Source of the DNA: Maribacter algicola
Lineage (GTDB): Bacteria > Bacteroidota > Bacteroidia > Flavobacteriales > Flavobacteriaceae
Assembly: GCF_003933245.1 (NCBI RefSeq)
Contig: NZ_QUSX01000001.1
Location: 1,054,001 to 1,118,000 of the forward strand
Reading direction: 5' to 3'
DNA: 64,000 nt
Shown here piece after piece: positions 47,277-63,518 of the stretch (positions within the stretch are counted from its first letter, which is position 1; each line of letters begins with the position of its first letter). The notes below the pieces were generated by a model. That model did no database searches. It had not been told where the DNA came from and was given only the letters and a program-made list of their open reading frames with translations. The translations under genes were made by a program, and so were the position numbers.

Positions 47277-48404
47277 TCAATCCAAAAACTCCAAACAAAC
47301 GGGATTGGGCAAATCAATTTCTTCCAAGAATGCTAAAGTGCCTAGCTCCTGGTCTCTTTTAAAGACCACAATATTATTGCTCTTTTGGTTGGCCACCAGC
47401 AAAAAATTACCACTTGGGTCAATCGTAAAATTACGCGGCCAATCCCCATGAACGGACTCCCTGCCCACAAGGCTTAAGGTACCCGTTGCTTTGTCCACTT
47501 TAAAAATGACAATGGTCTGCTCACCTCTATTTGATCCATATAGGAAATTGCCATCGGGTGATAAATGGATATCGGCACAGTAACTTTCTCCAGAAAAGTC
47601 TTGGGACAGTGTAGCATGTGTTTCTTTTTCCACATAGGTAGAACCCTCCCTTTTAAAAATGGTAATAGTGGAATTCAATTCATTAATGACATACAGATAC
47701 TTTCCATTTTGACCAAAAGTAAAATGTCTTGGCCCTGCTCCATCGGGTAAATCAATGGAAGCTTGTTCGTTTGGTTTGAACTTTGCGGCATCCAAAGAAA
47801 ATCGCTTCACGGCATCCAGGCCTAAATCGGCAATGAATAACCCTTCCTTTGTAAAGGCGGCAGAGTGTGCATGGGATGTCTTTACAGTATCCAAACTTTG
47901 CAGGTCAATTACTTGTGGATTCTCCATTAGCCCACCTATCTCGTCCAAATTGAAAATAGTGGAATTCCCCCCAGTATAACTAGAAATAGCCATATTTTTC
48001 CCATCATCTGAAACGGCTATATGACAAGGATGTGCACCCACGGTAACCACACCCCTTTTTTCAACGAGTTTACCTTCTATTAATTCAAAGGCCATAACAC
48101 CGCCAGTTTTATTTTCAAAGGAATCTGTTTCCAGTACGGAATAAAGCATTGAATTATCTGGAGAAAACTTTATATATGAAGGGTTTTCAATAGTTGCCGC
48201 CAATTGTTTGTTGGTTAAGGCTCCTGTATTCGCATTGAATTTCAGTTGATAAATACCATTGCTATCCCCGTCCGTATACGTTCCTACATATAAATCATAG
48301 GTCATGTGGTCAGAATTCATATTGCATCCCATCATACAGAGTATGCCTAAGTACATCATTGCAGTAGTCCATCTATTCATCTGTTTATTTATGTTGTTTT
48401 TCAT
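47277..48404 (-). CDS. lactonase-family beta-propeller lipoprotein (6-phosphogluconolactonase-like)
   Basis: A 375-residue protein with a lipoprotein signal (LGILCMMGC, Cys at about 28) and the seven-bladed lactonase fold: VGTYTDGDSNGIYQLKF, SYIKFSPDNSMLYSVLE, GAHPCHIAVSDDGK, DGAGPRHFTFGQNGKYLYV and HGDWPRNFTIDPSGNFLLVA. The family includes YbhE-type lactonases, and export suggests it acts on sugar lactones in the periplasm. A start at MNRW eight codons downstream is an alternative. Confidence 0.87.
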   Translation of the reverse strand: MKNNINKQMNRWTTAMMYLGILCMMGCNMNSDHMTYDLYVGTYTDGDSNGIYQLKFNANTGALTNKQLAATIENPSYIKFSPDNSMLYSVLETDSFENKTGGVMAFELIEGKLVEKRGVVTVGAHPCHIAVSDDGKNMAISSYTGGNSTIFNLDEIGGLMENPQVIDLQSLDTVKTSHAHSAAFTKEGLFIADLGLDAVKRFSLDAAKFKPNEQASIDLPDGAGPRHFTFGQNGKYLYVINELNSTITIFKREGSTYVEKETHATLSQDFSGESYCADIHLSPDGNFLYGSNRGEQTIVIFKVDKATGTLSLVGRESVHGDWPRNFTIDPSGNFLLVANQKSNNIVVFKRDQELGTLAFLEEIDLPNPVCLEFLD

Positions 48405-48500
48405 AGGTCAGACATGCCCAACTGCCTCGTTCAGGCCAGTGTAATTATTCACATCATTTCAGTTTGTCTACCATGAGCGTTCATGAATCCTCGATCGCCA

Positions 48501-48518
48501 TCCCGATAGCTATCGGGA
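48501..48518. repeat. perfect 18-bp palindrome, dispersed-element type
   Basis: TCCCGATAGCTATCGGGA is a perfect palindrome. The 14 bases at 48495-48508 recur at 8107-8120. Such palindromes are common scattered elements in flavobacterial genomes. It lies in the spacer after the lactonase-like gene start. Confidence 0.65.
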
Positions 48519-48619
48519 CATCTAGGTGAGTATCAAGACTTGTTATGGCTCATTTCACTGGGTAAATTAAATTTACCTAAATGTAGACACTTTTAATGAA
48601 TCTCTGTAAATCGCGAAAT

Positions 48620-48757
48620 CTAAAGGTCAGTTCTTGTATTGTCCCTTTGATTTTTATAATCGCGATATTCCTTGGTCGATTTTTTCAAATCAATGATGGC
48701 AACTACCACAAGAATAAACAAAACCAGGGTAACTATAAGCAATACAAAGTACATCAT
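48620..48757 (-). CDS. small single-pass membrane protein, 45 residues
   Basis: The ORF reads MMYFVLLIVTLVLFILVVVA, then IIDLKKSTKEYRDYKNQRDN and ends TRTDL. It has one strong hydrophobic helix followed by a charged tail, the usual layout of small membrane proteins. It is divergent from the gene at 48986. No family is recognised, and the length is below usual gene-finder cutoffs. Confidence 0.5.
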   Translation of the reverse strand: MMYFVLLIVTLVLFILVVVAIIDLKKSTKEYRDYKNQRDNTRTDL

Positions 48758-48911
48758 GGGGGAAGTATTTACTTTTTAGACCCAGAATGTTGGTTAAGGT
48801 CACTAACCATACCTTTTTTATGGACAAACCAGATGCTTATTCATTAAAATGTTGATTACAAAGTCACTATTGATAAACCAATATCCGATTAAATTCCTAT
48901 CTTTTGGAAAT

Positions 48912-48959
48912 ATCCCCATTATCTGGTATACCATTAACTGATCAATTTGGCCATATTTG
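48912..48959 (+). promoter_or_regulatory. putative response-regulator site plus -7 box, promoter 1
   Basis: ATCCCC ATTATC TGGTAT (48912-48929) is an imperfect dyad with a TA centre. After exactly 22 nt comes CATATTTG (48952-48959), close to the TAnnTTTG box, and 26 nt later the ATG at 48986. The same dyad, spacing and box occur at 53097 and 56213. The dyad centre is roughly 43 nt before the expected start site, a normal activator position. Confidence 0.6.
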
Positions 48960-48985
48960 GCCATAGAACTTTAAAAACTTAGATA

Positions 48986-49717
48986 ATGACAGTAACCAAA
49001 AAAAAATCCAGGCCATTAATCATTTTATTGTTAGTACTGGTAATTTCTCCATTGACGGCCCAATTAAGGAAAATCAAGGACACTGCTCCTCTTATTGTTA
49101 AAAGAGTGGTCGGAATGGAAGATTATAGTTCAACCCTTGATTTTAACGACAACAGAAAACAACTTCTCATGGCCGGTCAAAATTACCAGACAAACTACGG
49201 TATTTATGCATCTATTGAAATTGGTGAATCAACATTGGGACAAAACTATAAAACGATAAAGAACATTGAATTTGAAATCGTAAACTATAAGCCAACTTAT
49301 TTTATTGGTATTGATTCTGTTGTGGTAGTAGCAGACAGAAATAATAGCGGAGCTACTTTTAAGATTTATACACGTGCCCTCTCAGATAAGACAAATTATA
49401 TCCTTAGCGAAAACTCTTTAAACAACTTACATTTTGAGCAAGGCAGCTATTTACATTCAGAAAGGTACCTAAATCCCATGTTTCCCATAAAAGATGCTAA
49501 CGGAAATATAGTTTACGGCAAAGATGGCCGAATAGACTGTAAACCTGACAATGGAAAGGCATTCGATTTTGAATTTTTTTATATGGATGGAAGACATGTT
49601 GTAAGAAAAGAGGATTATGACAAAGAACAAGAAAGTGAGCTAAGTGCCACCAATGAAATTGCATTTTCACTTCCAGGACGAAGGTGCAATACCAGTTTTA
49701 ACAAGGTCGTATTCTAA
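48986..49717 (+). CDS. hypothetical exported protein, first gene of two-component operon
   Basis: A 243-residue protein of unknown family. The N-terminus (PLIILLLVLVISPLTAQ) is a signal peptide. The rest is mixed alpha/beta with a segment MFPIKDANGNIVYGKDGRID and a charged C-terminus. It overlaps the histidine kinase gene by one base (TAATG) and follows promoter 1, so it is co-expressed with the kinase and may supply or modulate its signal. Confidence 0.7.
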   Translation: MTVTKKKSRPLIILLLVLVISPLTAQLRKIKDTAPLIVKRVVGMEDYSSTLDFNDNRKQLLMAGQNYQTNYGIYASIEIGESTLGQNYKTIKNIEFEIVNYKPTYFIGIDSVVVVADRNNSGATFKIYTRALSDKTNYILSENSLNNLHFEQGSYLHSERYLNPMFPIKDANGNIVYGKDGRIDCKPDNGKAFDFEFFYMDGRHVVRKEDYDKEQESELSATNEIAFSLPGRRCNTSFNKVVF

Positions 49718-51567
49718 TGTATAAATTCTTAATCTGTTTTTTTCTGATTAGTTCCAATCTATTGTCCAACAACAAAAAACTAGAGACTTTTTTTAATGCA
49801 ACAAAAAATCAAGATTACGATAACGCTTATTTAATCGCTTGCAATATAGAAGATGATATATTGAAAGGTCATTTGATTACCCTTGTGAATTTATTGACTG
49901 AAAAAACACCCAAAACAGATAATAGCGTTAGCACCGAACCTTCTGAAAACAAAGAATTAAACTTTGTTAAGTTCCTAATATCCGCATATCAAAACAACTA
50001 TGCTATAAAGCAAGACAATCTTCAGGCCTTCAAAAATTTCTCTAGCGCACTTAAAATAGCGGAGTCCCTAGAAAACGAGGTTTTGGCCAAAGCAGCGTTG
50101 ATTGGGACACTTGACCTGTTTGCTGCAGAAATATTTATTGGAAGCAGTCAATTTGAACCTTTCTTGGAACGACTGATAGAATTAAGAAATGACACTACCG
50201 ATGATTTTTTAATTCTTCTATACCAATTGATTTTTCTTACCAAGGCCGATGACGATATCCTTGAAGTAGACGCGCAGTATTATTCATATTACGGCAAACT
50301 CGATTCAATTTTTTTAAGATTGAAGAAAACGCATCCTTTATATCCCAAGTACTATTTCGAAAAAGGTATTTACCATAAAATTGAAAAGGACTATGGGAAA
50401 GCAGAGGATTTTTTTTTAAAAGCGGATAGTATCGCTTCCAAAAATAAATATTTCAATGTACTACGAGGAAAAGTGGCCTGGCAATTATCTTCTATACATA
50501 TGGAAAACAACCAAATTGAGAAGGCCAAACGTTATTTGAAGATATTCAAAAATAGTTCCCATACACTTAGAGATTTATTTTATTCTACCCGTTTGGAATC
50601 CTTAATATTTCAAAAAGAAGGTATCTATGATTCAGCGTATTTTTATTTACGAAAATCAGTAGATGTTGAGTATCAACTTGGCTACAAAAACAACACTCTG
50701 GAATCCTCCATCTTAAAGGTCCAAAATCAAACGGACAAACTAAAGCTGGACAAATTAGAGTTGGATGCCCAGAACAAAAAGATAAAAATTTGGACCCTGG
50801 CACTTGGACTGGCCCTTCTTTTTGGGTCAGTCATTGGTGTACTTACCTATAAAAACACCAAGCGCAAACAATTGCTCGCTGAGCAGGGAAAAATATTGGA
50901 GGAACAGAAAGTGGCAACACTTCTAAAGGATCAGGAACTGGCTACCATTGATGCAATGATAGAAGGGCAGGAAAAGGAGCGGCAACGCATCGCCCATGAC
51001 CTTCATGATGATTTAGGTGGATTGATGGCAAACGTAAAACTTCATTTCAACTCCTTGCAAGAAAAATCAATAAGTAACAAGCAAGAACTTTATAATAAGA
51101 CCAATGAACTATTGGAAGAGGCCTATCAAAAAATACGGGCTATCGCCCATGAAAAAAATTCCGGGGTCATTGCGAAGCAAGGACTATTAAGAGCTGTTAA
51201 TCAAATGGCTGAAAAAATTTCGCAATCAAATAGAATAGGGGTAACTGTTCAGGATTTTGGTTTGGACAATCGGCTTGAAAATAGCCTGGAAATAAACCTG
51301 TTCAGAATTATCCAAGAATTGATAACTAATATCATTAAACATGCCAAGGCCACAATGGCAAACATACACCTCACCAACCACGGTGATGTGCTAAACATTT
51401 TGGTCGAAGATAACGGAATAGGTTTTGACCCAAAAACCATAAAGAAAGGTAAGGATGGAATGGGCCTCAAAAGTATCGACAAACGAATATCCCATTTGGA
51501 GGGCACTTTTCATATTGAATCCGAACCCGGTAAAGGTTCGACCATAATTATTGATATACCCATATGA
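49717..51567 (+). CDS. TPR-like sensor histidine kinase, NarL-type (HisKA_3)
   Basis: A 616-residue kinase. After a signal segment, helical repeats of TPR type fill about 25-330 and likely lie in the periplasm, with TM at about 359-378 (WTLALGLALLFGSVIGVLTY). A coiled coil then leads to the HisKA_3 dimerisation domain with phosphoacceptor H427 (ERQRIAHDLHDDLGG). The ATPase has RIIQELITNIIKHAKA (530-545) and VEDNGIGFD (563-571). It overlaps its response regulator gene by 4 nt. Together they form a NarX/NarL-like pair. Confidence 0.93.
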   Translation: MYKFLICFFLISSNLLSNNKKLETFFNATKNQDYDNAYLIACNIEDDILKGHLITLVNLLTEKTPKTDNSVSTEPSENKELNFVKFLISAYQNNYAIKQDNLQAFKNFSSALKIAESLENEVLAKAALIGTLDLFAAEIFIGSSQFEPFLERLIELRNDTTDDFLILLYQLIFLTKADDDILEVDAQYYSYYGKLDSIFLRLKKTHPLYPKYYFEKGIYHKIEKDYGKAEDFFLKADSIASKNKYFNVLRGKVAWQLSSIHMENNQIEKAKRYLKIFKNSSHTLRDLFYSTRLESLIFQKEGIYDSAYFYLRKSVDVEYQLGYKNNTLESSILKVQNQTDKLKLDKLELDAQNKKIKIWTLALGLALLFGSVIGVLTYKNTKRKQLLAEQGKILEEQKVATLLKDQELATIDAMIEGQEKERQRIAHDLHDDLGGLMANVKLHFNSLQEKSISNKQELYNKTNELLEEAYQKIRAIAHEKNSGVIAKQGLLRAVNQMAEKISQSNRIGVTVQDFGLDNRLENSLEINLFRIIQELITNIIKHAKATMANIHLTNHGDVLNILVEDNGIGFDPKTIKKGKDGMGLKSIDKRISHLEGTFHIESEPGKGSTIIIDIPI

Positions 51568-52187
51568 TACGGTTAGCAATTGCTGAAGATCATCAGTCGT
51601 TGATAGATGGCTTGGAGCTACTTCTTAAATACGAGGAAAATATCCAAATTGTAGGCACTGCCAACAACGGGCAGGAGTTATTGGAGGTCGTACGGAAAAG
51701 AAATCCAAATGTTATAATTACCGACATTAGAATGCCCATTATGGACGGGATTGAAGCAACAAAAATTATCAAAGCGGAGCACCCCCATATTACCGTTTTG
51801 GCTTTTACCATGTTCGACCAAGAGGGGGCCGTAAAAAAAATGTTGCATGCGGGCGCAACCGGATATATTCTTAAAAACGCTTCCCTTAACCAAGTCTTGG
51901 AGGCAATTTTGACCGTTGCCCAAGGCGGTACTTATTATGATGGCAATATTGATCTCTCATTTGCAGAAAATCAAAAAAAAGCCTCCAGCAAAGGTCGGTT
52001 GACCAAACGACAAAAAGAAATATTATCCTTGATCGCACAAGGAAAGACATCAAGGGAAATTGCAGATGAACTTTTTATCGGCATACACACCGTTGACACC
52101 CATAGAAAAAACATGATGCGCATATTGGAAATCCAGGGAAAAGGAGAGTTACTGAGGTACGCCTTGGAAAAAAAGTATGAATTTTAA
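51564..52187 (+). CDS. NarL/LuxR-family response regulator
   Basis: A 207-residue regulator. The receiver domain has acidic E8 and D9, phosphoacceptor D54 (IITDIRMPIMDG), T82 and K104 (YILKNAS). The LuxR-type helix-turn-helix covers about 145-205 (RLTKRQKEILSLIAQGKTSR, DELFIGIHTVDTHRKN). It is the cognate partner of the kinase 4 nt upstream. Its probable targets are the dyads before 48986, 53171 and 56385, including its own operon. Confidence 0.95.
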   Translation: MIRLAIAEDHQSLIDGLELLLKYEENIQIVGTANNGQELLEVVRKRNPNVIITDIRMPIMDGIEATKIIKAEHPHITVLAFTMFDQEGAVKKMLHAGATGYILKNASLNQVLEAILTVAQGGTYYDGNIDLSFAENQKKASSKGRLTKRQKEILSLIAQGKTSREIADELFIGIHTVDTHRKNMMRILEIQGKGELLRYALEKKYEF

Positions 52188-52230
52188 TCTTTTCCCCTAT
52201 TTTTAAGGAGAATTGAAATACTCAAAAAAA

Positions 52231-53025
52231 ATGATTGTCAGGTCATTGTACATTCTAACCATTTTTATGTATGCCCATGTTTCCGGATATTCCCAAGTTG
52301 AAACGTACTATGCCCTGAAAAACCAAGAGGTTGAAAAGACCGATTTCAAAGAAATTAAACGAGAGCTCTTATTTAAAGCGGAATCAACGGATACTAAGGA
52401 ATCCTTTGGGCTGGCCCTGGGTGCATTGGCCGTCAAACTCATACCTTTGTTGGTTGATGGGGCCTCCAAATTATTCTATAATCCTGATAATTTCAATAAA
52501 GAATATTTTGCCAGTTATTCCTTTTTTGAAAATTCTGGAAGTTTTACAAAACTAGATTCTGAGCAAAACATGGTCTTCCAACAATCTGGTCTCAACGAAT
52601 TTGGGGGGCGGGAAGTAATCAATCGATTTGTATTTGACCTAGGTAACGTAAAAAATGTAGAAGGTTATTATTATCTAGGCCTAAAATCCTACGAACTCAA
52701 TCATTCCTGGTGTAAACTAAGTGGACCGGGTAACCGAATTAACTATATTCTGGATATTGGATTTTATTATTTTGACGAGGATGATAAGGCCCAGGAATTC
52801 CACATCAACCCCATTCTATTGGACGAACAGTTCATTGATGGAGAAAAAAGGGAAATTCCAGAAATAAACTATCAGGTAATACCAAAAATGAAAGTACTTC
52901 AGACCGTCCAGGTTAGGATACGCGAAATCAATGCAAAGACACAAAATTGGGACCGCTATCTAGAACTTTATCAAAGTAACCAGAACAATATCTCCAAATT
53001 TTTGATACGGGCACTTGGCGAATGA
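52231..53025 (+). CDS. hypothetical exported protein
   Basis: A 264-residue protein with a signal peptide (SLYILTIFMYAHVSGYSQ), unrecognised. A hydrophobic segment (LALGALAVKLIPLLVDGASK) follows a short Lys-rich region, then a beta-rich domain. I chose the ATG at 52231 over an upstream TTG (52213), which sits only 2 nt from a GGAG. It follows the response regulator by 43 nt and is probably on the same transcript. Confidence 0.65.
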   Translation: MIVRSLYILTIFMYAHVSGYSQVETYYALKNQEVEKTDFKEIKRELLFKAESTDTKESFGLALGALAVKLIPLLVDGASKLFYNPDNFNKEYFASYSFFENSGSFTKLDSEQNMVFQQSGLNEFGGREVINRFVFDLGNVKNVEGYYYLGLKSYELNHSWCKLSGPGNRINYILDIGFYYFDEDDKAQEFHINPILLDEQFIDGEKREIPEINYQVIPKMKVLQTVQVRIREINAKTQNWDRYLELYQSNQNNISKFLIRALGE

Positions 53026-53096
53026 CCATGTTCTTCTTCAACTGGCTTCAAAGAAACTTACTTACCCCTTCAAATCGACACTAAGGAGAACTATAT

Positions 53097-53144
53097 ATAC
53101 CCTTTACTAGGTATTGAATTAGGTATGCCCGCCTACTATTTTTG
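53097..53144 (+). promoter_or_regulatory. putative response-regulator site plus -7 box, promoter 2
   Basis: ATACCC TTTACT AGGTAT (53097-53114), then exactly 22 nt, then TATTTTTG (53137-53144), a TAnnTTTG match. The ATG at 53171 is 26 nt further, the same distance as at promoter 1. Confidence 0.65.
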
Positions 53145-53170
53145 ATCATAACCAAACGTTGGATAACCTT

Positions 53171-54526
53171 ATGAAATACGCGTATATTCTATTCTTATTT
53201 ATACTTTGGGGTAAGACCTTCGGCCAATCCTATAGCGGTCTTTTTACAGATAATTTTAGCGGAATACATAACACCATTATCAATCCGGGTAGCCTTGCGG
53301 ACAGTCGTACTAAGTGGGAACTCAACCTTTTTTCCATCAATAGTGTAGCAAGTACTGATTATACCCCCTTGACCTTGGGGAATATCACTTCTTTTATTGA
53401 AAATGATAGTTTTGATAGTTTGGAGAGACTTGCTTCCGATACTAATAACTTTTTGATAAATTTAGATGTATTGGGGCCTTCCATACAATTTTCACTTAAT
53501 GAGAAAAACGGACTTGCGCTATTTACAAGAATAAGGGCCATTGGAAACGTAAACAATATTAACGGTACTCTTTTTGAAAGTGTTTATGATGGGTTTGCCA
53601 ACCAGGACTTTGATTTTGTTGCGAACAATATGGATTTTACCACACACGCTTGGGCTGAAATAGGCCTATCCTATGGATCAATACTGCTACAAAAAAAATA
53701 TCATAGGTTAAAAGGAGGGATTTCTTTAAAATACCTCCTTGGCGGAGGGGCTATTCAAGGTAGCAGTACTCAGCTTAATGGCCAGTACGATTCTAGTATC
53801 GAAGAGGTGTCCCTAAACGGTGACCTTTCCTATGCTTTTAGTGCTACGGAAACTGAGGGGGATGTTGACTATTTTGACAACCTTTCACCAGGGTATGGTT
53901 TTGATTTTGGCGTTGTTTACGAGTTTAGAACCCCCTCATCCTTAGCTCCTTCCAATGGCGATAATCCTAGGGGATTCAATCAATACAAACTAAGAATGGG
54001 GCTATCTTTTTTGGATATTGGAAAAATAACCTATCGCAATACGGAGAGCTCCACCTATCAAATTAATGCAACATTTGCTGCCCAAGATCTAGAAGAAGAT
54101 TTCATATCGGCCATTGAGGATCAGGTTGTTCCACAAACCCTTGTAAATAACCAAGCCTGGAAACTCCCTGGCACCATTAATTTAAACGTTGATTACTGGT
54201 TAACCAAGCAATGGTATCTGAACCTAAATATAAACCAAGGTTTGTTGGATATGAATGCCACTTTTAATAACAACCCTTTGAATCTTATTACGCTTACACC
54301 AAGGTATGAATCCAGGATTTTTGGAGCCTATCTACCTATTTCTAATAGTAAATTAAGTGGAACCTCAATAGGCTTAGGGTTGCGATTGGGTCCGCTTTTG
54401 ATAGGTTCTGGAAGTTTATTTTCCAACCTAGGCAATAATGCCCAATTGGCAGACATATTCCTTGGACTTAAAATACCTGTGTACCACAAAAGAAAGAGTA
54501 AAGATTTCAAATCAAAAAAACAATAA
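53171..54526 (+). CDS. DUF5723-family outer-membrane-barrel-like protein
   Basis: A 451-residue exported protein (signal LFLFILWGKTFGQ). The N-terminal DNFSGIHNTIINPGSLADSR and repeated amphipathic beta strands (GLALFTRIRAIGNVNNING, LRMGLSFLDIGKITYRN) place it in the DUF5723 group of outer membrane beta-barrel-like proteins. I use the ATG at 53171 because the upstream TTG adds only four residues. It has its own promoter 2 and a paralog at 56385. Confidence 0.8.
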   Translation: MKYAYILFLFILWGKTFGQSYSGLFTDNFSGIHNTIINPGSLADSRTKWELNLFSINSVASTDYTPLTLGNITSFIENDSFDSLERLASDTNNFLINLDVLGPSIQFSLNEKNGLALFTRIRAIGNVNNINGTLFESVYDGFANQDFDFVANNMDFTTHAWAEIGLSYGSILLQKKYHRLKGGISLKYLLGGGAIQGSSTQLNGQYDSSIEEVSLNGDLSYAFSATETEGDVDYFDNLSPGYGFDFGVVYEFRTPSSLAPSNGDNPRGFNQYKLRMGLSFLDIGKITYRNTESSTYQINATFAAQDLEEDFISAIEDQVVPQTLVNNQAWKLPGTINLNVDYWLTKQWYLNLNINQGLLDMNATFNNNPLNLITLTPRYESRIFGAYLPISNSKLSGTSIGLGLRLGPLLIGSGSLFSNLGNNAQLADIFLGLKIPVYHKRKSKDFKSKKQ

Positions 54527-54642
54527 CCTACAATTGGTACGCCTTTTAAGTACCAAATTCAATTAAAAACCACTGTGCGCACCATACATTTTAAACAATT
54601 GACAAAATTTAGTATTTTACAACTCTAAGTCGTAAAAATAGT

Positions 54643-54726
54643 ATGAAACCCAAATTTAGGGATTTGTTATGGTACGTTAAATACCTCTTTAAACATCAAG
54701 CTATTAATCAAATTTTAAAGGTTTGA
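54643..54726 (+). CDS. short leader ORF overlapping the start of the metalloprotease gene
   Basis: A 27-codon ORF (MKPKFRDLLWYVKYLFKHQA, then INQILKV and TGA) whose stop overlaps the downstream TTG start as TTGA. Such stop-start overlap could couple translation. It may be only chance. Confidence 0.3.
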   Translation: MKPKFRDLLWYVKYLFKHQAINQILKV

Positions 54727-56111
54727 AATATCTCACTGTACTATTGTTCTTTTGGTTCTACCAATCAGCTGTTGGTCAGGGTTTCCAACAGGATATTGTA
54801 TACGAAGAAGTGGATGAAAGTTGCTTTGGCAACCAAAGCTATCAAGCGGACCCCGAAGCCGAGGCTATCGTGGACGAAATCATGGCCCAAATGGGCTTAA
54901 ACAGAACCTTTAAAATTAGGCAATGCCACAATATTCAAAACGCATTGGCCAGTATACAAGAAGATAATAGTGGTAAAAAAGACCCTTATATCCTATATGA
55001 CCCTGTCTGGCTTGCAAAGATGAAAAATAGCTCCCGTACAGATTGGGCTTCCATAGGAGTAATGGCCCATGAAGTAGGCCATCTTTTAAACTATCACTCT
55101 TTGAACAACGTGGGCAGCAATCATAGATATGAGATCAGTGCAGACCGATTTGCCGGGTCCACCATGGCCCGTATGGGTAGTACCCTTGAGGAAGCACAGA
55201 GCATGTTCAAAAATTATCCGGAAAAAGCCTCTAGCACCCATCCCGGAAGGGCGGAACGTTTGGAAGCCATAAAAGAAGGATGGAACCGAATCAATAATCC
55301 AACCCAAAGAACGGTTTTATTAAACGAAAATACCCCGGATCGGGATATTCTTCCAGAACTTATCATTAACAGGTATTACAAGGAAGCTGGCGGACAAAAA
55401 GAACTAGGCCAAATAAGGGAACTAAAATTTCGTGAAAAAATCACCGAAAAAATTGGTCAAAGCTTAAATGCCATATCCAACGAATTTCAACATGAATATG
55501 TGCTGAACCCAAATACCATATTGGTAAACAAAGCCTTGGAGGGACGGGATTACAGTGAGAATTACAAAGTTGAAAACGACTCTTTATTTTGGAAATATTC
55601 AAATGAGGAAAAATGGAATCCAGGTGCTCCTCGCATAGGAACAGAAAAACAAGATGACTATGAGTTTAAAAAGGACATTGAGCCAAGCTTGAGTAATTTT
55701 TTTGAAGACTTTGTTTTACTATCCAATCCAGAGGTAGCGACCTACAATGGCAGAGAAAGAATCGACGGCATCGAATGTTTTGAACTCAAATTGCCCGAAG
55801 AACGCATGGAATTTGGTGATCTTCAAAAAAAGGGCAAACGCGTGACGGTGGAAAAAAGTTATTTTTATCAAACAGCTACTGGACTCCTGTATGCCATCGT
55901 AGAAAAAGAGCTGATTGAATCTTTTAAAAAAGGAAATCCAAAAGATAAGAAAAACACCGAACGAAAAATAGTGTATGGACACTATAAAAAGTTTAACGAA
56001 CTACTTTTTCCTACCGAAATGAATACCAGTCTCGTTCCTCTAAAAAGTGATATTCCCCAAACCGGAGAAGGTATATATCAGGAACGAAAAATAACGGATA
56101 TTCAGTTCTAA
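54723..56111 (+). CDS. exported HExxH zinc metalloprotease (M48-like)
   Basis: A 462-residue protein with signal peptide (YLTVLLFFWFYQSAVGQ). The zinc motif HEVGH is at about residue 118 in WASIGVMAHEVGHLLNYHS, with an EISADRFAG segment downstream that supplies the third ligand, as in M48-like peptidases. The C-terminal half (KGKRVTVEKSYFYQ and so on) is a separate domain. TTG at 54723 is the only start that leaves a whole signal peptide, since an in-frame stop lies 18 nt upstream. It sits between the two DUF5723 genes. Confidence 0.8.
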   Translation: MKYLTVLLFFWFYQSAVGQGFQQDIVYEEVDESCFGNQSYQADPEAEAIVDEIMAQMGLNRTFKIRQCHNIQNALASIQEDNSGKKDPYILYDPVWLAKMKNSSRTDWASIGVMAHEVGHLLNYHSLNNVGSNHRYEISADRFAGSTMARMGSTLEEAQSMFKNYPEKASSTHPGRAERLEAIKEGWNRINNPTQRTVLLNENTPDRDILPELIINRYYKEAGGQKELGQIRELKFREKITEKIGQSLNAISNEFQHEYVLNPNTILVNKALEGRDYSENYKVENDSLFWKYSNEEKWNPGAPRIGTEKQDDYEFKKDIEPSLSNFFEDFVLLSNPEVATYNGRERIDGIECFELKLPEERMEFGDLQKKGKRVTVEKSYFYQTATGLLYAIVEKELIESFKKGNPKDKKNTERKIVYGHYKKFNELLFPTEMNTSLVPLKSDIPQTGEGIYQERKITDIQF

Positions 56112-56212
56112 CAATACTTGAAAAAGCGATATTTTGTAGGTCTTTTCTTTAAGTCTACCCAATACTTTCCTTCTTTACAATCAACTGATTATCAATCTCC
56201 TCATTCCAAATT

Positions 56213-56260
56213 ATACCCAATAATGGGTATTTATTTATTTGGCCTTACCTGTTATATTTG
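56213..56260 (+). promoter_or_regulatory. putative response-regulator site plus -7 box, promoter 3
   Basis: ATACCC AATAAT GGGTAT (56213-56230) is the most symmetric copy: TACCCAA TA ATGGGTA fits the inverted 7-2-7 heptamer layout bound by NarL-type regulators. Exactly 22 nt later lies TATATTTG (56253-56260). The first gene of this unit starts at 56385. Confidence 0.7.
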
Positions 56261-56307
56261 ATTTTATCGATAAACCTATCTTTTTATCGACAAAAAGCAA
56301 TTTAACA

Positions 56308-56361
56308 ATGATAAAAACCATGAAAATTTTCTATCTTGAAAATCCCCCGCTTTGTCCGTAA
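56308..56361 (+). CDS. possible 17-codon leader ORF
   Basis: MIKTMKIFYLENPPLCP then TAA, between promoter 3 and the DUF5723 start at 56385. Short and AT-rich, so it may be chance, but it is the first ATG in the leader. Confidence 0.2.
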   Translation: MIKTMKIFYLENPPLCP

Positions 56362-56384
56362 GGACCTTCAAACCACCAACCAAA

Positions 56385-57776
56385 ATGCAAAGAGACCACT
56401 ATATTTTATCATTTATACTTTTTTTACCATTTCTGGCACTTGCCCAATTTGGACACGGCACCGTTTTTGACAACTATGGCGGAATCTATAATGTGGTGCA
56501 AAATCCGGCCAACAGTGTAGAATCCAAATACAGGTATCATATCAACGGTATGTCCTATCACTTTTTCAATCCCACCGAGATTGGCGAAACCGATTTTCAG
56601 GACATCATCCAAAATCCAAATGGTTTCAATGCTTTGGACTTTCAAGAAGTTGATGAAAAAAGTTTAAGTCTTAAAAATAACTCCATGGTTGACCAAGATA
56701 TTTTATTGCCCTCTGTTCTTTGGGGTTTTTCTCCCAGGCATGCCGCTGCTTTTCTATGGCGTTCCCGTTCCTACACGGATTACCAAGGCTACAATGGAGG
56801 GCTTTGGGCACGACTGACCAATCCCGATTATAACGGATCCATACCCATAAATACATCCAACTTCAACAATACCACCCACCAATGGGACGAATTTGGTATC
56901 AACTATGCCTTTGCAGCCATTAGGGGTAACTATCACTTTTTAAAAATTGGTGGCACCATTAAATATTTGGCCGGTAGGCGTGGTACAGAGGTGCGCGGCA
57001 GTCTTTCAACCGACGAAAACGGAAACATTACAGGCGTTGAACAATTAACCTATTTAAACACTGCCACCGCATCACTTCCTTCCAACGCTACAGCAGAAAC
57101 CGATGCATTTTACACCCATGCGATTGGGTTTGATTATAATGGACAGGGAATAGGTGGGGATATTGGCCTAGTTTACGAGTGGCGTCCAAGAGAGACTAAC
57201 CGGGTTGGCGCCAGGAATAGCAGTGCAACCGTTAACACATACAAGTTACGGTTAAGCGCCGCTGTTTTGGATATTGGAGGTATTGAGTACGGAAAAGAAG
57301 AAAAGGACATACGAAAGATGTTGTTTAAATTTGAAGGTAACTCAATTGAACCGGACAATACAGAAGAACTGTTCCAAACCTTGGATGGTGCAAATACCCA
57401 TACTCCACAGGATGAAAGGATTCAACAGGGCAGCGTCACGTTTGCGCTTCCCATGAGCTTAAACATCAATGCGGACTACCTAGTCCTGAATGACAATAAA
57501 TACTATGTAAACCTCAACTATGTGCAGGCGCTGACCTCCAAAGACGACGAATTTACAAATACTAGATTTGGTATGGCTACACTGGCTCCCCGGTATGAAA
57601 CCTCGGATTTTAGTGCAAGTATCCCTCTTGCGTATGTGATGGAAACCGGGAGTATCCATGTTGGATTGGCGGTTCGGTATAAATACATCACGGCCGGTTG
57701 TGTGAGCCTGCCCAACATGCCTTTAAATCACATTTATTTTGGAATCAGCCTGCCTGTTTTGGAAAAGGTATTTTAA
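56385..57776 (+). CDS. DUF5723-family outer-membrane-barrel-like protein, second copy
   Basis: A 463-residue paralog of the protein at 53171, with signal (ILSFILFLPFLALAQ). The opening GTVFDNYGGIYNVVQNPANS parallels the first copy. Beta-barrel strands follow (LRLSAAVLDIGGIEYGKEEK, SLNINADYLVLNDNKYYVNL). The ATG at 56385 gives the best signal peptide. A longer upstream start at 56352 (TTG) has no support. It is 11 nt upstream of the giant surface protein gene. Confidence 0.8.
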   Translation: MQRDHYILSFILFLPFLALAQFGHGTVFDNYGGIYNVVQNPANSVESKYRYHINGMSYHFFNPTEIGETDFQDIIQNPNGFNALDFQEVDEKSLSLKNNSMVDQDILLPSVLWGFSPRHAAAFLWRSRSYTDYQGYNGGLWARLTNPDYNGSIPINTSNFNNTTHQWDEFGINYAFAAIRGNYHFLKIGGTIKYLAGRRGTEVRGSLSTDENGNITGVEQLTYLNTATASLPSNATAETDAFYTHAIGFDYNGQGIGGDIGLVYEWRPRETNRVGARNSSATVNTYKLRLSAAVLDIGGIEYGKEEKDIRKMLFKFEGNSIEPDNTEELFQTLDGANTHTPQDERIQQGSVTFALPMSLNINADYLVLNDNKYYVNLNYVQALTSKDDEFTNTRFGMATLAPRYETSDFSASIPLAYVMETGSIHVGLAVRYKYITAGCVSLPNMPLNHIYFGISLPVLEKVF

Positions 57777-57787
57777 AAAGATTTAAT

Positions 57788-60700
57788 ATGAAAAGAAAAT
57801 TACTACTCCTCATTATACTAATTGTTACGACTTGGTCTTATGGTCAATATACGGCTATTCCTGACCCAAATTTTGAACAAGCTTTAATTGACCAGGGGTA
57901 CGATTCAGAAGGGGGGGCTGTCGATGGTCAAATATTGACTACTGATATCCAGAACATTACATTTCTCAATCTCACAGGCGACCCAAATTTTAATGTAAAC
58001 CAAAATGAGATAGGTTTAGGAATTACAGATTTAACAGGAATAAAGGATTTTGGGAGTTTGCAAGTATTATGGGTACAGGGTAATGACCTGACCGTGCTGG
58101 ATGTAGAAGGAATGTCTTCCCTTTTAGATATTCGAGCCTTTTTTAATGATTTGGAGCAAATTAACATTAACGGTCTGATCAATTTGGAGATTATAGGTCT
58201 TAACGTCAATAATCTTTCGGGTATTAATGTATCCACCAACACAAGTCTGGAGATTTTTGATATTGCCCAAAACAACCTTTTGGGTCTGGATATTTCTGGT
58301 CTTAGCAATTTAACCAACATGAACGTGCAGGACAACCCTAACTTATCCTGTATACAAGTGGAAAGTGCTGCAACGGCCACGTCCCTAAACGGCAATACCA
58401 ATTTTAGAAAAAATGGTGCTACTGTTTTTTCAAACTCATGTCCTTCTATTTACACTCAGATCCCTGATCGAAATTTTGAATCTGCTTTAATCTCGAACGG
58501 AATTGACACCCAAGGTGGTATCCCAAATGGTTTGGTACTGACTGCAGACATTTCGAACCAAACTAACTTGGATATTTCCAATCAAGGGGTAACGGACCTA
58601 ACTGGTTTGGAAGCGTTTACCTCTTTGGAAATACTGGATGTAAGTAACAATAATTTAAATGCTCTAAGACTTCAAAACCTTAGTTTAATTGAAATTTATG
58701 CTAATAACACTAATGTAGCTGGTGGCGAAATATTCTTTCAAAATGTGCCCAGTGGTTTACCATTGTCTAACGTAACTACCTTGGAATTAATAAATAATAG
58801 TTTAGGAAATGCATCTTCTAATTTTAGTTTTGGTGGTGTTCCTAATGTACAGACTTTGAATATTAGCGGAAATAATTTTGGCACCTTAACACTTGGGGGG
58901 CAAACAGATTATATTTCTAATCTCATTGCTTCCAATTGCCCAAACCTAAACAACTTGACCGGTTTAGGTTCTTTATCACAATTACAGGAATTGACCATTA
59001 CCAATTCCAATTTTACAAGCTTGGATTTTACCGGTTTAGACTTACTTAGTACGCTACGGGTTGACAATAACAACTTTGAATCTTTGAACCTCAAAGACAT
59101 TGACGACACACTAACGACGCTGAATGCCATCGGAAATGTTAATTTAAGCTGTATTGAAGTAAGTAATGTTGGCACCGCCCAGGCCCAAGGGGGGTGGCAA
59201 AAAGATGATGCAACAGAATACCGGACAGATTGTAGTACAGTCCAACCGTTTTTGGTATCTGCAACTCTAACCGGAGCGGGTATTGGGCCGAATTTCTCCG
59301 TTAATGAAGGTGAATCTTTCTCCATTGAAATAAATGCGTTAAGCGATGAAGCGGATGGACAGACTTTCAGCTACGCTTACGTTCCCAGTGGCATAAGCTT
59401 AGACGACTATACACCTCCACCAAACCCAAGTAGTTTTACTGTAAATAGTTCTCAGGTCGTTGATGGTAGAATCACTTTTGAGATTACAGATGATAACATT
59501 CCTAACGAAGGTGAAACAATAATTATCGAATTATTCGAAGACAATGAAAATTGGAATTGGGAAAATGCCTCCGCAAATGGGACAAGAACCTTTGAAATAA
59601 AAATAAATGATGCTCTGACCAATGCACCTTTAATAGTGGAGGCACAAATTAATGGTACAGAGGGCAGTGCTCCCAATTACAGTATCAGAGAAGGGAACAC
59701 TTTCAACATAGAATTCAACGCCCTGGGTAATGATTTTGAAAACCAAGATTTCCCTATTATTTTCGAGGTTACGGGAAACTCACAACCAGAGGACTATAAC
59801 GGCTCTACAAGCCCCAGTTCGTTTACAGTAAATGCATCCACGCCCATTGATGGCAGTATAGCTTTTGAAATCACAAATGACGGAGTTGATGAGTCTGGAG
59901 AAACCATTGTTATAACCCTTCCAAAACCAACATCAAATTATGAATGGGCAAATGCTGAGGCAGATGGGAGTTTAAGCTTTGAAATTATATTAACAGATGC
60001 TTTCCTTCAAACCAGTACTTTCTCTTCAGCTATCGTGGGTGCGAACCAAGACGCCAATGGGAATTATTTCGTAAATGAGGGAGATGAAATTGAGATTCAT
60101 ATTGAGGCTAATGAGATTAATTTACCTCAAGGTTCTCCATTCACATTCGAATATCAAGTTTCCACTACCGGCGATAGCAATGATTACGTCGTTGAATCAT
60201 CAAACCCTTATACATTTACCATTGACAACACTAGTAATCCAGACGGAAAACTTAATATAAAAGTTAACACCGACAATTTTAATGACGGTGGAGAAACTAT
60301 AACAATAGTACTTCAAAGTAATGAAAATGTACTTTGGGAGGATGGATATGACCAGATAACAGATTTTTATGAAGATGCATCCTTTACCTTTGAAATTGTT
60401 GACGTCCCACCTATTGGTTTTAATATAAAAGCTGAGTTAGAAAATACTGGCGGAACTGAAGGAAACGGAATCCAAGCTGGCAGAGATGGAGCTATAGAGG
60501 ATGGAATGGGTACTGATACTTTTACCCTTACTCTTAAAAATAATGATGGATCACCTTATGTGACCGACCAAGAATTGGTATTTCAAATAAATTTTATTCC
60601 AGACCCTAACCCTCAAAATGATGGAAAGAGTGCCGACGAAAGTGATTTTATCATTCCAACGCCCTCTGAAATAAGAATTGCACCTAGAACTTCCAGTGGT

Positions 60701-62812
60701 TCAATTACCGTTCAATTGCCTCAAGAAACCGAAGATGATATTCTTCATGAGTACTATCTCGCCGCTGTAACACAAGATACCGAAAGCCCCCCAATTCGAA
60801 TGCCGGAAGCATTACAAGCCAAAATTATTGATGATGAAGGAAAGTTTAGAGTTTTTTATACAATTGATAGTAGTAACCTTTTTTTGGCTGACTACCCAGG
60901 AGCTGGTTGTTGTGCTCACAATAATGTTGAGGAGGGAGAATCAATAAAGTTCTCGTTTAATGCAGAAAAAGGAGTAATTTTAAATGAAGAATATAAGATT
61001 GGCATATCCTATCCAAAAGCAACTCACCCAGAGGATGTTATGATTGATGCTCTGCAGGGCGAAAGTGAGGATTTTTATAATACCGCGGAATTTGAAGAAT
61101 TGTTTGATAATAGTGATAATCCTCCCAAAAGAATAGAAATCATTACATCTGAGGTAATTGAAAATGATCCAGATTTCAATTTATCTATTCGAACAATTGC
61201 TGATGGTGATCCGAAGGAAAAATTTGCGATTGAATTAACCTCCCAAAGCGATAACTTTCTTTTAATAAGTTCAAAAATAACCTATCCTGATTATGTAATA
61301 ATACCCACAATTCAAGCTTCTTTACAAGTATTGGATGATACAGCCGATGAAGAAAATCAAGAAGATAAAGGTGTTTTTAATATAAAGCTTGAAGATGAAG
61401 CAGGAGCTCCCATTGATATGTCAATTTATTATACTATCGAAGGAAGTGCCATAAATGGAACGGATTATGTCTTTTTAAGAGATTCTATATTTTTTGCTAG
61501 GGGAGAAATTGAAAAAACTATTGATATTGAAGCAATTGCGGATGATTTCCCAGAAGATACTAAGACTATAATTCTCACACTGTTGGATAAAAAAGGTTAT
61601 TCCATAAGCAGCAACAATAGGGGTATTGTTACCATACCAAAAAACGACCAAGATCTTATTGAATATTCAGTTACCCTAACAGCGCTTCAAGACATAATAA
61701 CCGAGTTGTCCGGTAGTAATGTAGGAACATTTGATGTTTCCATTTCTCCGGCCAATACTTCTGGAAACGATGTCATTGTAAATTATGCTTTTATCGATAA
61801 TGGAAAGCCTAACCCTGCAACAGAAGGTGAGGGTAATGACTTTACACAATCTGGCAATGGACAATTAATTTTTGTGAGTGGTGGCCCCTCAACACAACAA
61901 ATTACGGTCACCGCATTAGCCGATCCTGAGACGGGCCCAGAGGTTCCCGAAACTATAACGTTATCACTTGTAGATGGCAATCAATACAGTGCGGCGGCCA
62001 CTCCCGTTGCCGTAATGGAAATACTAAGTACAGAGGTAAATCGTGACAGACTTGATGAAAATGCATTGGAGGTTCAAGTGTTAAGTAATACCTGCGCAAA
62101 CTCCAATGAAGGTAATGTTATTATAAAAAATAATTCCCCTTTTGCTTATTTGGCAACAATAGTCAAAGAAGATGGAGAAGAAATTACTTTTTCTTTAAAT
62201 CCTCCAAAAGGTGAGGAAGAAAATGGTGAGATTGAAATAGAAAATCTACCTTCCGGTAGACATTTGGTCTCTTTTAAATTTGAGGACGAATCCATAGAAC
62301 TTATCCCCCCGATTTTTGAAATATTCATTGAAGCTTTAAATGGTACCTCCCTCAAAGCGAAAAGTATAGACTTTTCCAGTAAAATGGGATATTTAAAGGT
62401 ATCTGGTAGCAGGAAATATATTGTTTACAACAATGAAAAGGAGTACGTTTTCGATACACAAGGGTACGATGAAACTATTATTTCCGTACCGTTGGAAGAT
62501 GGAGTCAATAATCTAAAAATTAAAGGTGAAGCTGCCTGTCAAGGAATCTTGGAAACTACACTTAATTTAACAGAGTTGACAATATATCCGAACCCTAGCC
62601 AAGGAAGGATAATAATTAACGGGTTTTTAAGAGACAGCAAAGCTAAAGTTTTTGTTACCAGTCTAGAAGGTAAAAATATTTATACAGAAACAATGGAAAT
62701 AAAAAATAATCGCCTTGACCTTGATTTATCGTTCTTTCCTAGTGCACTATATATAGTAAATGTCGCTACGGAATCTGGTGAAAATATAGAATTTAAATTA
62801 TTAAAGAACTGA
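57788..62812 (+). CDS. type IX-secreted surface protein with LRR and Calx-beta-like repeats
   Basis: A 1,674-residue protein with a signal peptide (LLLLIILIVTTWSYGQ). Two leucine-rich-repeat blocks (about 20-215 and 220-475) each start with IPDxNFExALI and end with a LSCI cap. Then come Calx-beta-like repeats from about 485 to 1455 (NEGESFSIEINALSD, NEGDEIEIHIEAN, SGNDVIVNYAFID). A type IX sorting domain closes it (LTIYPNPSQGRIIINGF). It is probably an adhesin or binding protein on the cell surface. An upstream in-frame start lies within the preceding gene and was rejected. Confidence 0.9.
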   Translation: MKRKLLLLIILIVTTWSYGQYTAIPDPNFEQALIDQGYDSEGGAVDGQILTTDIQNITFLNLTGDPNFNVNQNEIGLGITDLTGIKDFGSLQVLWVQGNDLTVLDVEGMSSLLDIRAFFNDLEQININGLINLEIIGLNVNNLSGINVSTNTSLEIFDIAQNNLLGLDISGLSNLTNMNVQDNPNLSCIQVESAATATSLNGNTNFRKNGATVFSNSCPSIYTQIPDRNFESALISNGIDTQGGIPNGLVLTADISNQTNLDISNQGVTDLTGLEAFTSLEILDVSNNNLNALRLQNLSLIEIYANNTNVAGGEIFFQNVPSGLPLSNVTTLELINNSLGNASSNFSFGGVPNVQTLNISGNNFGTLTLGGQTDYISNLIASNCPNLNNLTGLGSLSQLQELTITNSNFTSLDFTGLDLLSTLRVDNNNFESLNLKDIDDTLTTLNAIGNVNLSCIEVSNVGTAQAQGGWQKDDATEYRTDCSTVQPFLVSATLTGAGIGPNFSVNEGESFSIEINALSDEADGQTFSYAYVPSGISLDDYTPPPNPSSFTVNSSQVVDGRITFEITDDNIPNEGETIIIELFEDNENWNWENASANGTRTFEIKINDALTNAPLIVEAQINGTEGSAPNYSIREGNTFNIEFNALGNDFENQDFPIIFEVTGNSQPEDYNGSTSPSSFTVNASTPIDGSIAFEITNDGVDESGETIVITLPKPTSNYEWANAEADGSLSFEIILTDAFLQTSTFSSAIVGANQDANGNYFVNEGDEIEIHIEANEINLPQGSPFTFEYQVSTTGDSNDYVVESSNPYTFTIDNTSNPDGKLNIKVNTDNFNDGGETITIVLQSNENVLWEDGYDQITDFYEDASFTFEIVDVPPIGFNIKAELENTGGTEGNGIQAGRDGAIEDGMGTDTFTLTLKNNDGSPYVTDQELVFQINFIPDPNPQNDGKSADESDFIIPTPSEIRIAPRTSSGSITVQLPQETEDDILHEYYLAAVTQDTESPPIRMPEALQAKIIDDEGKFRVFYTIDSSNLFLADYPGAGCCAHNNVEEGESIKFSFNAEKGVILNEEYKIGISYPKATHPEDVMIDALQGESEDFYNTAEFEELFDNSDNPPKRIEIITSEVIENDPDFNLSIRTIADGDPKEKFAIELTSQSDNFLLISSKITYPDYVIIPTIQASLQVLDDTADEENQEDKGVFNIKLEDEAGAPIDMSIYYTIEGSAINGTDYVFLRDSIFFARGEIEKTIDIEAIADDFPEDTKTIILTLLDKKGYSISSNNRGIVTIPKNDQDLIEYSVTLTALQDIITELSGSNVGTFDVSISPANTSGNDVIVNYAFIDNGKPNPATEGEGNDFTQSGNGQLIFVSGGPSTQQITVTALADPETGPEVPETITLSLVDGNQYSAAATPVAVMEILSTEVNRDRLDENALEVQVLSNTCANSNEGNVIIKNNSPFAYLATIVKEDGEEITFSLNPPKGEEENGEIEIENLPSGRHLVSFKFEDESIELIPPIFEIFIEALNGTSLKAKSIDFSSKMGYLKVSGSRKYIVYNNEKEYVFDTQGYDETIISVPLEDGVNNLKIKGEAACQGILETTLNLTELTIYPNPSQGRIIINGFLRDSKAKVFVTSLEGKNIYTETMEIKNNRLDLDLSFFPSALYIVNVATESGENIEFKLLKN

Positions 62813-62816
62813 AGAC

Positions 62817-63518
62817 ATGAAAAAAGTAATTATTTGTTCTTTTATGGCATTAGTAAGCCTATTACTAGCATGTGATGGTGAATTTGTAAAAAATGATTTA
62901 GCTATTTTTTTGACTTCACCAAAAAATGATGCCCCCTGTCTAGACGGTGAAAAAGTTGGTGAGAAACTTGATATACCCGTTGAATGGACTATAGAGGGAT
63001 TACCTAATAATTTGATTATTTATGTAGACAAACTAGATGATAATAAAGAAATCATAGACATTTCAAACCAACAACAAATACCTATAGCAGTCGAAGAAAC
63101 TTCAAAAAAAATCACTGTCGATCCAGGCAGTTGGTATCAATGGCAAATAATTGGAAATGAAGGAAACCTAAAAAGTGATGTATATACATTTTTCAGTGAA
63201 GGCCCTCCATCACCTAACCAAGTTCCTTTACCGGCGCAAATTCAAATTACAAGAAACAGTAATTCTCAGGTTCAATTTAATTGGACACAAACTCCAGATC
63301 TTGACAATGATCGTTTAGTTTTTGATGTTTTTTTTGGAGAAACAGAGGATACAAGTATTCCTCTCCGGGAAAACTTGGAAAGCCCAGAAGAAATATCACT
63401 CTCACCAATAGAAGCAGATAAAACGTACTACATAAAAGTAATTACCAAGGAAATTAGATCGGACAATACCGTAGGTAATAGAGCGATAGCTTTGTTAAAA
63501 GTTGCCGTGAATGGTTGA
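62817..63518 (+). CDS. lipoprotein, unrecognised
   Basis: A 233-residue lipoprotein with signal SFMALVSLLLAC (Cys at about 19). The rest is beta-sandwich-like, with tryptophans and prolines (PVEWTIEGLPNNL, WYQWQIIGNEGN, QVQFNWTQTPDLDNDRLVFD), similar to fibronectin type III domains. It starts 4 nt after the giant protein and is overlapped by the next gene by 8 nt, so it belongs to the same transcript. Function is unknown. Confidence 0.75.
   Translation: MKKVIICSFMALVSLLLACDGEFVKNDLAIFLTSPKNDAPCLDGEKVGEKLDIPVEWTIEGLPNNLIIYVDKLDDNKEIIDISNQQQIPIAVEETSKKITVDPGSWYQWQIIGNEGNLKSDVYTFFSEGPPSPNQVPLPAQIQITRNSNSQVQFNWTQTPDLDNDRLVFDVFFGETEDTSIPLRENLESPEEISLSPIEADKTYYIKVITKEIRSDNTVGNRAIALLKVAVNG

Follow-up and report, generated by a model that had tools for sequence, protein, structure and literature searches.

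The window, a 64,000-nucleotide stretch of the Maribacter algicola genome at positions 1,054,001 to 1,118,000 of contig NZ_QUSX01000001.1, carries a two-component pair (g2 and g3) within the genes g1 to g9, together with three inverted repeats, each followed by a promoter-like box. These features lie as follows.

48912..48929, + strand: candidate operator O1 of promoter P1 (putatively autoregulatory), ATCCCC-ATTATC-TGGTAT, a 7-2-7 dyad with a TA centre, at the same place in relatives
48952..48959, + strand: −7 box of P1, CATATTTG, first base not T
48986..49717, + strand: g1, 243 aa, no Pfam domain, N-terminus that looks exported; putative sensor partner
49717..51567, + strand: g2, sensor histidine kinase (HisKA_3, HATPase_c)
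51564..52187, + strand: g3, NarL-type response regulator (Response_reg and GerE), proposed operator binder
52213..53025, + strand: g4, 270 aa, no Pfam domain, 25 bp after g3
53097..53114, + strand: candidate operator O2, ATACCC-TTTACT-AGGTAT
53137..53144, + strand: −7 box of P2, TATTTTTG
53171..54526, + strand: g5, DUF5723 protein, behind O2 and P2
54723..56111, + strand: g6, M48-family peptidase
56213..56230, + strand: candidate operator O3, ATACCC-AATAAT-GGGTAT
56253..56260, + strand: −7 box of P3, TATATTTG
56385..57776, + strand: g7, second DUF5723 protein; likely ATG at 56385, listed open reading frame (ORF) opens at TTG 56352
57788..62812, + strand: g8, LRR / Calx-beta surface protein with a type IX secretion sorting domain
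62817..63518, + strand: g9, 233 aa, no Pfam domain, 4 bp after g8

The gene at 51564 had been predicted to encode a NarL-type regulator, and its domains agree: the receiver domain of g3 matches Response_reg (E 2.8e-26), and the C-terminal helix-turn-helix matches GerE (E 4.4e-16). On the NCBIfam NarL model, g3 scores 108.4 bits, below the cut-off of 250 for an E. coli NarL orthologue. The best solved-structure match of the regulator profile is the VraR-type 5hev (E 1.5e-41), over nearly the whole length. Residues E8, D9, D54, and K104 and the recognition-helix motif HRKN are invariant in the regulators of 50/50 loci. The kinase has a weak TPR_8 match, below its cut-off, and, by eye, a signal peptide and a membrane helix. 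A protein whose gene neighbours those of papain-like proteases in related loci is probably distantly related to g1. g4 is probably on the same transcript as g3, and g8 is probably co-transcribed with g7. We searched the gap before g6 for a dyad with a box at 22 nt and found none.

The original prediction described three promoters with a common dyad, and its description of the dyads, boxes, 22-nt spacers, and TA centres is correct to the base at all three sites. It also saw no clear TTTG-type −33 element. This is true of sites 1 and 3, but site 2, alone among the three, has a TTG at 53114-53116, 20 nt before the P2 −7 box and at a possible −33 position. Similarly, the 26 nt between box and start codon that it noted are there at P1 (ATG at 48986) and P2 (53171), but this length is not a fixed feature: the likely ATG of g7 lies 124 nt beyond the P3 box, and leaders scatter widely over the loci compared, with medians of 28.5 nt for 38 operon promoters and 28 nt for the 50 of 57 downstream promoters that have an ORF. 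O1 is the weakest of the three dyads, with 2 mismatches to ATACCC-N6-GGGTAT, a form that occurs perfectly in the M. algicola genome at O3 only. The P2 and P3 boxes match TAnnTTTG, and P1 deviates at the first base.

We then combined dyad, 22 nt, and TAnnTTTG-like box into one composite pattern, allowing up to 2 mismatches unless stated otherwise. In the window, a pattern of this kind derived from the three sites themselves, and therefore no independent test, has 3 matches where 0.03 are expected. In the whole genome (4.11 Mb), the composite occurs at these three places only. At 3 mismatches there are eight more sites, one of them O3 on the other strand, and the reversed-pattern control gives 3 in all. 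The dyad alone, at up to 2 mismatches, is found 192 times forward and 232 times in the reversed control, showing no enrichment. It is the combination of dyad, spacing, and box that stands out, not the dyad alone.

Among relatives, g1 is present in 5 of the 59 searched; in the named genome collection, its carriers are Maribacter spongiicola, M. flavus, M. sedimenticola, two Maribacter MAGs, a Muricauda, and two uncultured Flavobacteriaceae. We scanned the genus loci with the spacing left free between 18 and 26 nt. At a total of up to 3 mismatches, every match is at 22 nt except O2 on the other strand (2 mismatches, 18 nt). The dyads precede either the g1 operon or other genes, with 0 and 2 mismatches in L045, 0 and 3 in L046, 1 and 3 in L047, 1 and 2 in L048, and 2 in L049. 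On the minus strand of two of these loci (L047:4351 and L048:184), we noticed a second operator-promoter, divergent from the g1 promoter and again with 22 nt. The composite recurs in three loci outside the genus (L051, L052, and L053), and it was only after the genus loci and these three that the TA centre was put into the motif. There are exceptions to the spacing: 21 nt separate dyad and box in the g1 promoter of L051, and at L052:13517 the box closest to a perfect dyad is 13 nt away. Judged by eye, the dyad in front of g1 in L049 and L053 goes with a degenerate box.

For a broader sample, we surveyed 397 genomes of the family, detecting the regulator by a profile (A2, E <= 1e-70) and the composite as ATACCC-NN-TA-NN-GGGTAT-N22-TANNTTTG with up to 2 mismatches. 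The regulator is found in 85/397 genomes, which is a lower bound given that the best 7 candidates were scored per genome, and the composite in 125/397. By genera sampled, the composite occurs in 91/237 and the regulator in 64/237. There are 308 composite sites in the 397 genomes against 17 reversed-pattern sites; the suspicion that motif plus spacing might be equally frequent at random places is thus not borne out. The composite is present in 66 of the 85 genomes with the regulator and in 59 of the 312 without it (Fisher p 1.2e-23, a value that ignores genome kinship), or 2.44 sites per genome with the regulator and 0.32 without, the reversed control giving 0.06 and 0.04. In the other 19 of the 85 regulator genomes, the composite is absent at up to 2 mismatches.

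From the 85 regulator genomes, we picked 40 loci (38 genus codes) for the regulator and for genus spread, not for the motif; 3 of the 40 are shorter than 15 kb and lie at contig ends. They contain 62 dyad/box pairs at 22 nt, whereas the remaining spacings between 5 and 44 nt have 1.8 on average and never more than 6. A reversed dyad gives no pairs at 22 nt. Of 20 dyads with permuted arms, 18 give none at 22 nt, and the other two give 7 each, overlapping the real ATCCCC form; these permuted controls find few dyads (0-28 against 156), and the other spacings are the stronger control. The mean pairwise identity of the spacers is 0.348, and 0.355 is expected from column composition. Spacers are no more alike than composition predicts, so it is the distance that is conserved, not the letters. 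Of the 123 sites in these 40 genomes, 51 fall inside the regulator locus (up to 15 kb), in 28 of the 40 loci, where 0.5 would be expected. In the remaining 12 loci the composite is absent at up to 2 mismatches, and in 5 of the 40 genomes it is absent altogether. With a looser threshold within the loci, a site stands before the operon in 31, after the regulator in 30, in both places in 26, in at least one in 35, and in neither in 5. In 21 of the 40, a site follows within 50 bp of the regulator stop codon. This arrangement is not chance. The sites, their fixed spacing, their gene neighbourhood, and their co-occurrence with the regulator are all direct results of computation.

The anatomy of these promoters was examined in 95 sites, 38 operon and 57 downstream promoters, from 50 loci, of which 45 have one. 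The dyad consensus is ATACCCaNTANtGGGTAT, with ATCCCC/GGGGAT as a second form. Base frequencies over the 95 sites are symmetric, TACCCaN-TA-NtGGGTA, and point to two inverted heptamers with a 2-bp gap; the sites were selected with a symmetric pattern. This is consistent with the 7-2-7 arrangement that had been suggested for the dyads. The spacers are T-rich near the dyad, with no clear TTTG −33 element. The −7 box begins with T in 10/38 operon promoters and in 54/57 downstream promoters (p 1.4e-12, which overstates independence because the operon promoters share descent); in the 40 loci alone, the numbers are 9/31 and 45/47. The window matches this family pattern, with CATATTTG at P1 and TATTTTTG and TATATTTG at P2 and P3. 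PMC6847099 puts the −7 element of Flavobacterium johnsoniae at −12 to −5, 4-5 nt ahead of the start. Taken together with the 22-nt spacer, this would place the dyad at about −52 to −35, with its centre at −43.5.

These data strongly favour a model in which the three dyads are operators of g3, which would bind them and activate its own operon and the genes for DUF5723 and surface proteins. The histidine kinase g2 would activate g3 by phosphorylation in response to a signal, probably with exported g1 as a sensor partner. A g3 dimer would then occupy each dyad as a 7-2-7 site, TACCCNN-TA-NNGGGTA, and bring in the housekeeping RNA polymerase of Bacteroidota. Centred at −43.5, the dyad would adjoin the polymerase in a class II-like manner, by analogy with E. 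coli promoters activated by NarL. The conserved phosphorylation residues, HRKN, and the geometry favour such phosphorylation-dependent dimer binding and class II-like activation. Through O1, g1-g2-g3 and possibly g4 would be under autoregulation, with a −7 box whose first base makes it weak, and O2 and O3 would drive the DUF5723 and surface-protein genes. The original prediction had proposed both this autoregulation and the control of the two DUF5723 operons, and the comparative data from outside the window lend support to both. That g3 would activate rather than repress, we infer from the position of the dyad and the weak core elements.

The operators might instead belong to another LuxR/GerE-type regulator, encoded elsewhere, for which the g2-g3 operon is one of several targets. 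We regard this as improbable for the window. The genome holds 41-42 first-look candidates for the regulator profile, and the composite or its dyad is also found in genomes without the g3 clade. Two of these, G413 and G284, have a 254-aa PAS-GerE protein with the operator before its own gene, at the following positions.

L145:646-1410: PAS-GerE regulator with its own operator
L238:9201-9965: PAS-GerE regulator with its own operator

A second site stands before a DUF5723 gene in G284 and before a gene that is followed by DUF5723 in G413. The same dyad is retained in some Maribacter genomes that lack the pair, where it precedes a gene for a 58-aa protein or a lipoprotein. Because operators persist in genomes without this regulator, the operator seems, as far as sequence tells, not to be exclusive to the g3 clade and to be common to a set of GerE-type regulators, with g3 the best candidate here. 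Against another regulator stand the co-occurrence with the g3 clade, the roughly 100-fold excess of sites near the g3-clade gene in the 40 genomes, and our failure to find the PAS-GerE protein (E <= 1e-15) in the window genome and six other Maribacter genomes. Unlikely to about the same degree is that g3 binds the dyad as a repressor occluding the −33 region. The dyad abuts this region, a TTG occurs at this place in some promoters (site 2 and many GGGTATTG sites), and NarL represses at frdA, as a section of PMC4549865 describes. One spacing is kept over many genera, however. Fixed spacing is typical of polymerase contact, and repressor sites usually tolerate shifts. In addition, 28/38 operon promoters lack the first T of the −7 box, which would be odd for promoters that need holding down, and the spacer frequencies reveal no clear −33 element.

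We consider it very unlikely that the dyad is the upstream element of an alternative (ECF-type) sigma factor acting without an activator. Alternative sigma motifs are reported in flavobacteria in part of PMC9723704, and the distance to the core box is fixed, which on this reading would reflect a single holoenzyme. The box, however, is of the housekeeping TAnnTTTG type, and an 18-bp palindrome occupies −52 to −35. Such a palindrome is unlike −35 elements. Moreover, the ten proteins scanned from 47277 to 63518 include a NarL-type regulator but no sigma factor. Chance, or a transcription-terminator hairpin, is hardly credible. O3 is indeed an inverted repeat followed by a T-rich stretch, and a terminator scan lists 56213-56230, but O1 sits between divergent genes, where a terminator is unneeded; relatives retain the dyad and the 22 nt with unrelated spacers, and the spacing histogram speaks against both explanations.

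Activation by g3 therefore remains the reading we prefer, and it has parallels in known systems. Like the E. coli NarL operators described in part of PMC4549865, the sites have two heptamers, a 2-bp centre, and a location around −43; there, the 7-2-7 sites of napF and yeaR span −40 to −49 and −38 to −47. Our consensus ATACCCaNTANtGGGTAT has the outer TACCC/GGGTA in common with an engineered NarL 7-2-7 site, TACCCCTAAAGGGGTA, given in the same source. Unlike the E. coli operators, the sites here are mostly TA-centred, have arms extended to AT...AT, and face a different core box at one fixed distance. g3 also differs from NarL in its score on the NarL model, and we saw no link to nitrate. VraR-type response regulators resemble g3 as the best structure match of its profile. 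They belong to another phylum, with other sensors and promoters. FimS/FimR of Porphyromonas gingivalis is, in the relevant part of PMC1974823, likewise a Bacteroidota two-component pair controlling surface proteins, and a section of that paper covers FimR binding to the mfa1 promoter region; its text has neither "binding site" nor "consensus," and the relevant passages give no operator or spacing. The −7 box and the short leaders are those of the housekeeping Bacteroidota promoter (TTTG / TAnnTTTG; part of PMC6847099), but here an 18-bp palindrome ends just upstream of the −33 place, and two of the three sites show no evident −33 element. In F. johnsoniae, too, the −33 element is much less evident than the −7 element, by the same part of that paper. 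Our search of the open-access literature turned up no paper that describes the operator of a flavobacterial response regulator of the NarL/LuxR type. A NarL-type activator is in principle nothing new; the operator and its fixed geometry appear to be new in Bacteroidota. A sharp operator with fixed spacing makes regulons readable from sequence in many genera. It also lends itself to testing how an activator makes contact with the divergent polymerase of Bacteroidota. The comparative data widen the interpretation from one locus to dozens of genera, and the operator links uncharacterised families (DUF5723, g1, head-gene proteases, and a 58-aa protein) to one kind of operator.

The last of these is a side observation. 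In Maribacter and two further genomes, including cases in which our search found no regulator, the operator precedes the gene of a 58-59-aa protein with an LTExE motif.

L063:1637-1813: LTExE protein
L104:9724-9900: LTExE protein
L233:9481-9660: LTExE protein
L242:9743-9922: LTExE protein

Comparison of the window with M. flavus (L046) gave a picture of how the parts of the locus evolve. Counted per 100 columns, DNA identity runs at 0.68-0.92 between 48066 and the dyad block and at 0.37-0.69 over what remains of the P1 leader, over g1, and over the periplasmic part of the kinase. It is 0.83 in the block at the boundary and 0.88-1.00 over the kinase core and onward almost to the end of g4. The P1 spacers of the two have unrelated letters, and both are 22 nt long. 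The segment 48930-50700 is thus a divergent block between conserved flanks and looks like an exchange of sensor specificity. Between g4 and g6, M. flavus has no counterpart of g5 and its operator (53030-54600), and g5 looks like a cassette that would bring its own operator.

Between P1 and the kinase, other genera carry one or more genes that vary widely. We scanned 63 of the 69 listed ORFs at this head position, leaving aside four close g1 relatives and two kinase-sized ORFs. Matches of note among the 63 were Trypsin_2 (4), Peptidase_C39_2 (1), and Peptidase_S7 (1); when ten were scanned singly, the protease matches fell mostly under Pfam's cut-offs. Scanned against PADLOC models, the 63 genes, with g1 of the window as one of them, gave 3 matches: RT-Protease_XI (2) and PDC-M35A (1). 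On the downstream side, 65 of the 110 listed ORFs after the regulator were scanned, and they include 8 with type IX sorting domains and 7 GerE proteins, besides LRR, Ig, outer-membrane barrels, and DUF5723. A distant site in M. flavus stands before a gene of at least 3305 residues with SprB repeats. We also looked at the genes behind 48 sites that have an ATG ORF of at least 55 codons within 160 nt, the remaining sites having none there; by eye, the N-termini of many of the downstream proteins resemble lipoprotein or signal peptides.

It is possible, and we put it forward tentatively, that these loci form a modular regulon across the Flavobacteriaceae. A conserved kinase core and regulator would be combined with a rapidly changing half for sensing and a hypervariable head gene, here for a secreted beta-rich protein and elsewhere for trypsin-like or papain-like proteases with partners. 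Interchangeable surface-protein cassettes would each carry their own 22-nt operator-promoter, cargo would join with its cassette, and the autoregulatory promoter would be kept weak at the first base of its −7 box.

Apart from this, we observed that some related operons start with a gene for a trypsin-like or papain-like protease, followed by a small partner protein.

L222:4091-5104: protease-headed operon
L219:10125-11336: protease-headed operon
L224:10034-11077: protease-headed operon
L195:10122-11132: protease-headed operon
L194:10172-11134: protease-headed operon, by eye
L202:10522-11100: protease-headed operon, by eye

These may represent an uncharacterised protease-linked signalling system. 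Upstream of the operon, 20 of the 40 loci (L192-L231) have a gene for a protein of about 355 aa, 55-74% identical to the first listed; the one member scanned is a class IV aminotransferase. This gene may mark a shared chromosomal site with variable cargo.
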